From Nocardioides dokdonensis FR1436 (GTDB taxonomy: Bacteria > Actinomycetota > Actinomycetes > Propionibacteriales > Nocardioidaceae): a DNA stretch of 64,000 nt. The notes under the pieces were generated by a model that worked only from the letters and a program-made list of their open reading frames with translations, was not told the origin of the DNA and made no database searches. Position 1 is the stretch's first letter, and each line of letters begins with the position of its first letter. The DNA lies in the NCBI RefSeq assembly GCF_001653335.1, contig NZ_CP015079.1, positions 2,480,001 through 2,544,000 on the forward strand, given 5' to 3'. This document shows, in pieces, positions 37,282-45,776 of the stretch. The position numbers were made by a program, and so were the translations under genes.

Positions 37282-42839
<5,558 letters not shown>

Positions 42840-42847
<8 letters not shown>

Positions 42848-43367
42848 GGGTTCCTCCGGTGGTCGTGGTGGTGGTCGTGAGGAGGTCCTCGCCCAGGAGC
42901 GCGCGCAGGCGCTCCAGGGCGTGCGAGGTCTGGCTCTTGACGGTGCCCTCGTTGATGTCGAGAGCAGCAGCGGTCTGGGCCACGCTCATGTCCTCGTAGT
43001 AGCGCAGCACCACCACCGCCCGCTGGCGCGGGGCGAGCCGGGTGAGGGCGTCGAGCAGGGTCGGGCGCAGTGCCTCGTCGGTGTGCGTCCCCGCCTCGGG
43101 CAGCACCTCGGTGGGCCGCTCGTTGCGCCAGGACCTCTTGCGGAACCACGAGGCCGCGGTGTTGACCAGGACGGTGCGCGCGTAGCCGGGCGCCGCGTCG
43201 ACGGAACGCACCTTCGACCAGGTCGCGTAGGTCTTGGTCAGGGCTGTCTGCACCAGGTCCTCGGCCTCGGCGGCGTCGCCGAGGAGGAGGTAGGCGGTGC
43301 GGTAGAGCGCTGGCCAGCTGGCGTGCACCATCTCGCTGAACTGCGCGTCGGTCGGGGGGCGTGTCAT
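42840..43367 (-). CDS. RNA polymerase sigma factor, SigE/ECF-type family
   Basis: The 175-residue protein has sigma region 2 (ALYRTAYLLLGDAAEAEDLVQ) and region 4 (LAPRQRAVVVLRYYEDMSVAQTAAALDI). The helix-turn-helix is close to those of actinobacterial SigE-family group IV factors. It should direct polymerase to stress-type promoters. The start is the ATG at 43365-43367 with GGGAG upstream. GCAACCG (minus strand, at 43416-43422) and CATCTC (43395-43400) could be an autoregulated promoter, but I hold that weakly. It overlaps the membrane protein gene. Confidence 0.9.
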
Positions 43368-43434: not shown

Positions 43435-44430
43435 TCAGGCTTCGAGCATGGACAGCGCGACGGGGAAGTCTCGCAGCTGGTGGGCCAACGCATCCCACAC
43501 CTGGTCGACGCTGGCGGGGTCGCCGCCGCGACCGGTCAGGACGTCGCGCAACCAGGCTCGGGTCTCGGAGAGCACCGAGACGTCGTCGCACAGCAGCGCT
43601 CCGACGAGGGAGTCCACGACGTGGGGGGTGTGCGTGGCCAGCACGACCCGCCAGTCGTCGGGGGACAGCGCCAGGCTGCCGAGGTCGAGGGCGGCCAGCA
43701 CGTCGCGCGCGATGGCGTCGGCCCGCGCCTGCACGGTCCGCGCCTCGGTCGCGCCCCGGTGGCCCAGGGGAGGGGCGGCGTCGACGTGGCGCGGCAGCGT
43801 CGGCAGCAGCGCCAGCGCCTCGGCGGGGGAGGCGGCGTACGCCGTCGCGCCGAGCCGGCGCGCCCGGACCCCGCCGCTGTCGAAGGCCCGCCCACCGACC
43901 ACCACGGGGGTGCCGGTGCCCCGCACCGCCTCCACCTGGCGCCGCAGCCGGGACAGGGAGGACGAGAGCGACGCGCTGAGCAGCACCGCGCGAGGCCCGC
44001 GGTCGAGGATGGCGGAGACCAGGTCGTCGCGGGAGGTGGCGGCGCCGGAGTACTCGGCGCCCAGCCCTCGCGCCCTCAGCACGGTGGTGAGCACCAGGGC
44101 GGGCATCGCGTGCCACTCCCGCTCCACGCAGGCCACGAGCAGCAGCGGTCCGGCCCCGGCGGGCAACCCGTCGGCGACCCGGTGCACGACCGCCTCCGAG
44201 ACCGCGGTCGCGGCGTGCTCGCGCGCCACGCTCCACCGGTGGGAGGCCCACAGCTCACCGACCCGGCGCTGGGCGTCGACGACGACGTGCTCGAGGAGGT
44301 CCTCGACGCTGGTGCCGCGGTCGAGCACCCGTTGCGCCACGGCGTGCGCGGCGGCGGTGTCGGCGTCGGACACCGCGCGCCAGTAGTCCTCGCGGTCGGC
44401 GGGCTCGACCTCGGCCCGGACCGGGGTCAC
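43435..44430 (-). CDS. CarH-like cobalamin-binding protein without DNA-binding domain
   Basis: The 331-residue protein begins directly with a four-helix cap domain and a Rossmann B12 domain (about residues 10-210). W61, E71 and H72 reproduce the Wx9EH cap signature of CarH/LitR photoreceptors, and H107 in EWHAMP sits where the lower cobalt ligand should be (CarH W131, E141, H142, H177; all offset by 70). The residue after W61 is Ala, so the upper histidine used by CarH after light exposure (H132) is absent. There is no MerR helix-turn-helix. The C-terminal third (about 215-331) is helical and unrecognised. The GTG start overlaps the phosphatase stop, so it probably modulates that enzyme. Confidence 0.8.
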   Translation of the reverse strand: MTPVRAEVEPADREDYWRAVSDADTAAAHAVAQRVLDRGTSVEDLLEHVVVDAQRRVGELWASHRWSVAREHAATAVSEAVVHRVADGLPAGAGPLLLVACVEREWHAMPALVLTTVLRARGLGAEYSGAATSRDDLVSAILDRGPRAVLLSASLSSSLSRLRRQVEAVRGTGTPVVVGGRAFDSGGVRARRLGATAYAASPAEALALLPTLPRHVDAAPPLGHRGATEARTVQARADAIARDVLAALDLGSLALSPDDWRVVLATHTPHVVDSLVGALLCDDVSVLSETRAWLRDVLTGRGGDPASVDQVWDALAHQLRDFPVALSMLEA

Positions 44431-45776
44431 GCAGGCTCCGCGCCGTCGTTGTGCAGCACGAGCAGGGCGATGTCGTCGTGGGCGCGCTCCCCGAGGTGGT
44501 CCGAGACGGCGAGGGCCACGGCCTCGACGACGGCGGCGGCGGACATGCCCGCCACAGCGGCGAGGACGGACTCGAGCCGGTCCTGGCCGAAGAAGTCGGT
44601 GACCCCGCGCGCCTCGGTGACCCCGTCGGTGTAGAGGACCAGGCTGTCGCCGCGGTGCAGCGTGGTGGTCGCAGCGGGGAAGTCCGCGTCGGCGATGAGC
44701 CCGAGGGCCACGCCCTCACCAGCGATGGCCTCGACCCCGCCGGTGGCACGCAGCACGAGGGAGTCGGGGTGCCCGGCGCCGGCCAGCACCACGTCGAGGT
44801 CGTCGCCGTGGCGCTGCAGGCGGCCGCACACCGCGGTGGCCAGCCGCTCGCTGAAGACCTCGTCCTGGTCGGCCTCGGTCACCAGCACCCGGTTGGTGAG
44901 CGCCAGGATGCTGCCGGGGTCCTGGTGCACCAGCGACGCGGTGCGCACGGCGTTGCGGATGCGCTTGGCGTGCACGGCGGCCTCCACACCCTTGCCGGTG
45001 ACGTCGCCGCACAGCACCAGGAGGTCGTCGGGCTCCCCGGGGACGCGCAGGACGTCGAGGAAGTCGCCGCCCACGGCCTGTGCCTCGTGGGCGACGCGGA
45101 CGTGGCTGTGGATCTGCAGGCCGGGGACCTCGGGCAGGCGGGCCGGCTTCAGGGAGCGGCGCAGCACGTCGGCGACGTAGCGGCTCTCGGCCACGAGCAG
45201 GGTCGCGTCGAGCCCGACGGCGACGCGGTCGGTCAGGTCCCCGAGGAAGGCGTGGGAGCCGGAGAAGTCACCGCCGCGGTCGCGGCCGACGACCAGCGCT
45301 CCCAGGGTGCGCCCGCGGGCCGTGAGCGGCAGCACCGCCAGCAGCTCGACCTCGCTGGCGGCCACCTGCGCGACGAGGTCCTCGTCGACCAGGAGGGACC
45401 GCAGGGCCGCGAGCCGGGTCGGGCCGGAGCGCGGCAGCACGACCTCCGTCGAGAGACCGGTGTCCAACGTGGCCCCCAGGTCCTCGGGCAGCGGGTCGGC
45501 CAACGGGCGTCGCGCAGAGACCGGCTCGGCACGGTGGGTCCCGCTGCACACGAGGTGGTGCGGTCCGGAGCGGACCACCACCTGGGCCACGTCGACGACC
45601 TCGTCGAGCAGCAGGTCGACGAGGGCCGCGAGCCCGCGGTCCGGGTTCTGCACCGCGGAGACGGTGCGGGAGAGCCGCAGCAGGAACTCGGCGCGGCTGA
45701 CGGCCTGGGCGAGGCGGGCGCGGGGCTCGGCGGAGCGGGAGTCGGCCAGCAGACGGGCAGGGCGCTCACGCGTCAT
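44427..45776 (-). CDS. GAF-domain SpoIIE-type (PP2C) serine phosphatase
   Basis: The 449-residue protein has an N-terminal GAF sensor domain (about 25-190) and a SpoIIE/PPM phosphatase domain (about 215-445). Metal-binding aspartates are in VGGDFLDV (D238), GDVTGKG (257-263), LYTDGVTEARG and HDDIALLVL. Such phosphatases usually dephosphorylate a STAS anti-anti-sigma protein to free a sigma factor. No STAS or RsbW gene is in the window. The ATG at 45774-45776 has AGGAGG upstream, rather far away. The next gene, a B12-binding protein, overlaps by four bases. Confidence 0.9.
   Translation of the reverse strand: MTRERPARLLADSRSAEPRARLAQAVSRAEFLLRLSRTVSAVQNPDRGLAALVDLLLDEVVDVAQVVVRSGPHHLVCSGTHRAEPVSARRPLADPLPEDLGATLDTGLSTEVVLPRSGPTRLAALRSLLVDEDLVAQVAASEVELLAVLPLTARGRTLGALVVGRDRGGDFSGSHAFLGDLTDRVAVGLDATLLVAESRYVADVLRRSLKPARLPEVPGLQIHSHVRVAHEAQAVGGDFLDVLRVPGEPDDLLVLCGDVTGKGVEAAVHAKRIRNAVRTASLVHQDPGSILALTNRVLVTEADQDEVFSERLATAVCGRLQRHGDDLDVVLAGAGHPDSLVLRATGGVEAIAGEGVALGLIADADFPAATTTLHRGDSLVLYTDGVTEARGVTDFFGQDRLESVLAAVAGMSAAAVVEAVALAVSDHLGERAHDDIALLVLHNDGAEPA

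Follow-up and report, generated by a model that had tools for sequence, protein, structure and literature searches.

Described cobalamin photoreceptors

The closest described systems are the photocobilins, in which a B12 helical cap and a Rossmann domain are joined to a C-terminal five-helix globin (photoglobin) domain and which are further characterized by AdoCbl and biliverdin binding and by photoconversion, and CarH of Thermus thermophilus (5C8D), with a MerR HTH and a B12 half whose reference residues are W131, His132, E141-H142, and H177 (numbering of PMC11796333). AbDPcob/AbPcob (8J2Y) represents a photocobilin-diguanylate cyclase fusion, while SasPcob of Saccharothrix syringae (8J2W/8J2X) is a standalone protein (PMC10979010). 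The photocobilin light state alters diguanylate cyclase activity, both in the fused protein and in trans, and an interaction of SasPcob with STAS and SpoIIE proteins was proposed from network data, the function of standalone photocobilins being called "less clear" in the paper that named the family (PMC10979010). That paper was the only relevant one to emerge from literature searches on B12 and SpoIIE, and the papers covered, in their main texts, describe no assay of a SpoIIE phosphatase with a photocobilin.

Organization of the locus

The window analysed here is a 64,000-nucleotide stretch of the Nocardioides dokdonensis FR1436 genome (contig NZ_CP015079.1, positions 2,480,001 to 2,544,000). 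Nocardioides is a soil-type bacterium. Two genes at 43435-44430 and 44427-45776, both on the minus strand, are the subject of this analysis; their features are as follows:

43435..44430, minus strand, standalone photocobilin-family protein of 331 aa (helical cap, B12 Rossmann domain, and C-terminal globin domain)
44182..44394, minus strand, PF02607 helical cap, residues 13-83, with W61 and E71-H72 (Pfam)
44110..44112, minus strand, H107, predicted lower axial cobalt ligand, equivalent to SasPcob His108 of PMC10979010 (alignment)
43816..44142, minus strand, PF02310 B12-binding Rossmann domain, residues 97-205 (Pfam)
43438..43758, minus strand, photoglobin domain, residues ~225-331, with W293 kept and His267 at the bilin anchor (structure match and alignment)
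44427..45776, minus strand, SpoIIE/RsbU-type PPM phosphatase of 449 aa with a GAF-like N-terminal region and linker helix 175-209 (Pfam PF07228)
44427..44430, minus strand, GTGA, a 4-nt overlap of the phosphatase TGA stop and the photocobilin GTG start (sequence)

The gene overlap recorded in a preliminary description of this DNA, which did not give the strand, is thus confirmed, and it suggests translational coupling of the phosphatase and the photocobilin. A promoter/terminator scan gave no match. The explanation of the locus held here to be reasonably probable as a whole is a photocobilin-SpoIIE sensor-effector pair, in which light would act on the phosphatase and, through it, on a partner switch; it draws on comparison of family, architecture, conserved sites, the conserved pair, its co-inheritance, and the partner-switching genes beside its relatives.

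Family and architecture of the putative sensor

Pfam recognizes only PF02607 (residues 13-83) and PF02310 (residues 97-205) in the 331-aa protein and finds no HTH or other DNA-binding domain, in agreement with the preliminary description. Among solved structures the best sequence match is SasPcob (8j2x/8j2w; E 1e-44, residues 9-324), followed by another photocobilin, AbPcob (8j2y; E 3e-25), while CarH is matched at E ~4e-13 and in the B12 half only. An AlphaFold model of the protein (pLDDT 96, pTM 0.92) gave five photocobilin chains as its top five Foldseek matches, all end to end (TM 0.83-0.88), against a TMq of ~0.53 and about half coverage for CarH. The end-to-end fold match to photocobilin chains places a globin (photoglobin) domain after residue ~225. 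The protein scores 71 bits with the NCBIfam CarH model NF052513, whose cut-off is 400. By its architecture, comprising the predicted cap, Rossmann, and C-terminal five-helix globin domains, the window protein is a member of the photocobilin family and a full-length relative of SasPcob, and identity with CarH is excluded. Nor is it a trimmed CarH, given the full-length photocobilin match (E 1e-44) and the end-to-end fold match. The earlier "CarH-like" label therefore describes the B12 half correctly and fails as a family assignment, since the best sequence and fold matches are photocobilins over the full length, including the globin domain at residues ~225-331, which had been overlooked.

The window protein shares with CarH the W-x9-EH motif and the lower His of the B12 half in identical spacing, but lacks the MerR HTH and has the globin domain in addition. 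It resembles SasPcob in being standalone, in its homology over residues 9-324, and in the presence of W61, E71-H72, the lower-ligand His, and the equivalent of Trp296, and differs from it in that SasPcob Asp270/His137/Gln62 are His267/Asp136/Ala62 in the window protein and in not keeping the GxxH and GxxxP elements. With AbDPcob/AbPcob it has in common the same three-part sensor and a His at the bilin anchor, whereas the output there is a fused GGDEF domain and here a separate PPM phosphatase.

The predicted cobalamin site

W61, E71, H72, and H107 had been described as lying at the CarH spacing, and the distances are exact: W61-E71 is 10 and W61-H107 46 residues, as are CarH W131-E141 and W131-H177. 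The photocobilin motifs W-x9/10-EH and E/DxH are likewise present (W61, E71-H72, and E105-W-H107), and the W/EH/H residues are conserved without exception in the SpoIIE-linked proteins (37/37, counting the window protein). The window genome encodes a cobalamin adenosyltransferase. Sequence comparison supports the conclusion that the protein has a predicted adenosylcobalamin (AdoCbl) pocket of the CarH type and is genetically coupled to a SpoIIE-type phosphatase.

The residue equivalent to CarH His132 is Ala62 in the alignment, as had been reported. It was taken as a sign of a different sensing route, which does not follow: the position is occupied by Gln in SasPcob and by Tyr in AbDPcob, and both respond to green light (PMC11796333), so that Ala62 in a position varying within the family needs no special route. 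With no His there, the bis-His light state of CarH would be unavailable in that form.

The SignatureFinder light-responsive signature is present in its GxxW and EH elements (G58-W61, E71-H72) and absent in GxxH and GxxxP (R104xxH107, G129xxxS133), so the protein fails the strict signature. The two missing elements, with R104 and S133 in place of the Gly and the Pro, count against the light-driven pair as the best explanation, although most SpoIIE-linked relatives share the deviation, the Gly of GxxH occurring in 9/37 and the Pro of GxxxP in 13/37 SpoIIE-linked proteins. The published light signature, strictly applied, would overlook most SpoIIE-linked photocobilins. AdoCbl is intrinsically photolabile, which speaks against a sensor that would read the amount of AdoCbl instead of light, its apo and AdoCbl-bound states setting the phosphatase activity. 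Such a sensor would be compatible with the kept lower ligand and adenosyl pocket and with the two absent signature elements, and the cyclase activity of AbDPcob does differ between the apo and AdoCbl-dark forms (PMC10979010); it appears improbable, as every close relative with this pocket that has been examined (CarH, SasPcob, AbDPcob, and CtMerR) is green-light responsive (PMC11796333). A light-responsive photocobilin thus stays the preferred reading.

In a Nocardioidaceae clade near groEL, the photocobilin ORFs L064, L069, L070, L071, and L077 have lost the lower-ligand His through a two-residue gap, and their EH motif has become EQ, QR, QQ, or RQ. With these changes, the five proteins may have lost the normal mode of AdoCbl binding.

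The bilin-anchor position

Asp270, the biliverdin anchor of SasPcob, is replaced by His267 in the window protein, while SasPcob Trp296 is kept as W293. The anchor Asp is not universal in photocobilins, since AbPcob, a founding member, has a His there; it binds biliverdin weakly and its red-light response persists (PMC10979010). The search of the window genome yielded no PF01126 heme oxygenase. As a candidate companion of photocobilins, heme oxygenase was rejected for want of association: by listing, PF01126 occurs in about half of the photocobilin genomes and in a similar share, about half, of all the family genomes. Among the 37 pairs it is present in 14/21 genomes with an Asp or Gln anchor versus 3/16 others (raw p 0.007), a link that is not significant under a phylogenetic pairing test with only three independent pairs and, not being robust to phylogeny, carries little weight.

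The replacement of the anchor Asp by His, together with the lack of a PF01126 heme oxygenase, leads to the proposal that the window lineage may sense with B12 absorption (green light) alone. SasPcob without biliverdin is monomeric both in the dark and in the light (PMC11796333), a point against the favoured scheme, since the output mechanism of a form with B12 alone may be different. The anchor replacement and the missing heme oxygenase also weigh against a two-chromophore photocobilin like SasPcob, which would also bind a bilin, through the nearby His270 or the anchor-position His in place of Asp, and respond to red and green light. That reading is rather unlikely, even with the globin fold and the W293 equivalent kept in 37/37 SpoIIE-linked proteins and with the precedent of AbPcob, whose anchor His permits some biliverdin binding and a red-light response (PMC10979010). 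In the preferred B12-only reading, one lineage has kept the B12 site and lost the bilin anchor.

The phosphatase

The upstream gene had been described as a GAF-SpoIIE phosphatase. Its SpoIIE part is well founded (PF07228, E 8e-40), and the metal-binding residues D238, D258, D384, and D434/D435, characteristic of SpoIIE/RsbU-type PPM phosphatases, are present and invariant in 37/37 proteins. The GAF match stays below the threshold (14.9 bits vs a Pfam cut-off of 28.6), and fold searches returned matches filled by the PPM domain; the predicted secondary structure of the N-terminal part is compatible with a GAF domain, and this is how far the GAF part of the description can be retained. The phosphatase domain, preceded by a predicted long linker helix (175-209), finds its nearest match in the RsbU domain of Rv1364c (Z 28). 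The protein is thus like the partner-switching phosphatases RsbU, RsbP, and SpoIIE, including the Rv1364c RsbU domain (3KE6), in its PPM fold, metal-site Asp residues, and N-terminal sensor-like region with a linker helix, and in the STAS/RsbW genes found beside relatives of the pair; what sets it apart is the predicted input, which would come from a B12 photoreceptor that is a protein of its own, with a gene overlapping that of the phosphatase.

Distribution and inheritance of the pair

An initial contig scan gave one close and one weak relative; the counts below rest on whole-genome searches, with loci located by tblastn. A photocobilin relative (E 1e-20 or better) is present in 51/342 Nocardioidaceae genomes. 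A SpoIIE gene is the immediate upstream neighbour, in the same orientation, at 28 of the 58 Nocardioidaceae loci (window included), mostly with a 4-nt overlap; the remaining loci belong mainly to the clade near groEL, which is without SpoIIE, and to a set beside GGDEF genes. In a phylum-wide sample, SpoIIE is directly upstream in all 11 loci from other Actinomycetes families and in 0/17 loci from other classes, 8/17 of which have a GGDEF gene nearby. At L155-L161, L166, L084, and L090, which are loci outside Actinomycetes and a few from Nocardioidaceae, a separate photocobilin gene follows a GGDEF gene, a split counterpart of the AbDPcob fusion.

Altogether, SpoIIE and photocobilin genes are adjacent in 39 loci, across families and at several separate genomic sites, which is far beyond chance, given that the window genome has just eight SpoIIE domains in total. 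Photocobilin and SpoIIE sequences give congruent trees (Mantel r 0.93, p 1e-4, n = 37). Both resolve three deep lineages of the pair, all of them represented in Nocardioidaceae, in keeping with the two genes having moved together. The congruence is to be read as co-inheritance only, as tightly linked genes may agree without contact of their products. Every pair (37/37) has retained the conserved residues of the sensor as well as the metal-binding Asp residues of the phosphatase. On this comparative evidence, which is strong, the genetic coupling of sensor and phosphatase appears real.

At the gatC-ligA site, L038 and L044 have a photocobilin gene but no SpoIIE, and no close SpoIIE ortholog was found elsewhere in their genomes, which counts against the sensor-effector explanation. 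Together with the whole groEL-linked clade without SpoIIE, they favour a pair that is simply co-transcribed and co-inherited, the photocobilin acting on a protein other than SpoIIE. This is given a low probability in view of the 39 adjacent loci, in different families and at several sites, where the genes move as a pair, and of the partner-switching genes around it; action of the photocobilin on the adjacent phosphatase is preferred. In L068 and L082 the photocobilin frame seems broken or frameshifted beside an intact-looking SpoIIE gene, which could be decay or a sequencing error.

Genomic context

STAS (RsbV-like) and HATPase_c_2 (RsbW-like) genes both adjoin the pair in nine loci, while 19/39 loci have one or both of them, the identity of these genes being Pfam-confirmed on five representatives. 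Their presence beside the pair in relatives points to partner switching of the RsbU-RsbV-RsbW type, and the recurrence of the two-gene pair across actinobacteria makes it probable that light is an input to a sigma-factor switch, a link that had been suspected before. In the window and its nearest relatives the surroundings of the pair, up to 6 kb away, contain neither a STAS nor a HATPase gene, which counts against the favoured explanation; HATPase_c_2 genes are present elsewhere in the window genome.

Between ligA and the pair, an ECF sigma factor gene and a probable membrane anti-sigma gene occupy 41732-43367 on the minus strand. A LitS-like arrangement, with the ECF sigma/anti-sigma pair as the output of the sensor, might be read from the start of the ECF gene 67 nt downstream of the photocobilin gene on the same strand, and from an ECF gene also downstream in L039, L044, and L068. 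It is very improbable: the same two genes lie at gatC-ligA without photocobilin or SpoIIE in eight Nocardioides genomes (L172, L173, L175, L176, L180, L182, L184, and L185), and are absent from most SpoIIE-photocobilin loci. Being present at this site in genomes lacking the pair there, they are older neighbours and were rejected as part of the system.

Proposed mechanism

In the preferred photocobilin-SpoIIE scheme, the standalone photocobilin probably binds AdoCbl in the base-off/His-on form via H107, with the adenosyl group under W61/E71/H72. Light would break the Co-C bond, and the EH-helix and the dimer interface would rearrange. The altered photocobilin would contact the SpoIIE/RsbU-type phosphatase coupled to it, with the GAF-like region or the linker helix (175-209) of the phosphatase as the probable contact site, and thereby change the rate at which an RsbV-type STAS protein is dephosphorylated. 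The state of the STAS protein would in turn determine if a sigma factor is kept bound by an RsbW-type kinase, the STAS, kinase, and sigma targets in the window genome being putative. In the window lineage B12 absorption (green light) is probably the sole driver, and the globin would serve as a structural or contact domain. A more specific version is put forward tentatively and with some doubt: a B12-only photocobilin branch that lost the bilin anchor would act as an independently encoded regulatory subunit for a SpoIIE/RsbU phosphatase, forming a light-controlled sigma partner switch encoded by a mobile two-gene module.

Significance

The coupling of a CarH-like B12 sensor to a phosphatase was at first presented as an unusual design. 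Its genetic side has held (39 loci, r 0.93), and the CarH family and the unusual design have not, for photocobilin control of an enzyme had been published and a SpoIIE/STAS link proposed for SasPcob (PMC10979010); a design of this kind thus has precedents. What is known, then, is photocobilin control of enzymes and a suspected SpoIIE link, and what is new is the comparative evidence making the predicted partner specific and testable. The conserved, mostly overlapping SpoIIE pair, sometimes in a complete STAS-kinase-phosphatase operon, offers standalone photocobilins both a candidate partner and a candidate pathway. If the scheme is true, a mobile two-gene module would allow actinobacteria to set a sigma-factor partner switch by light.
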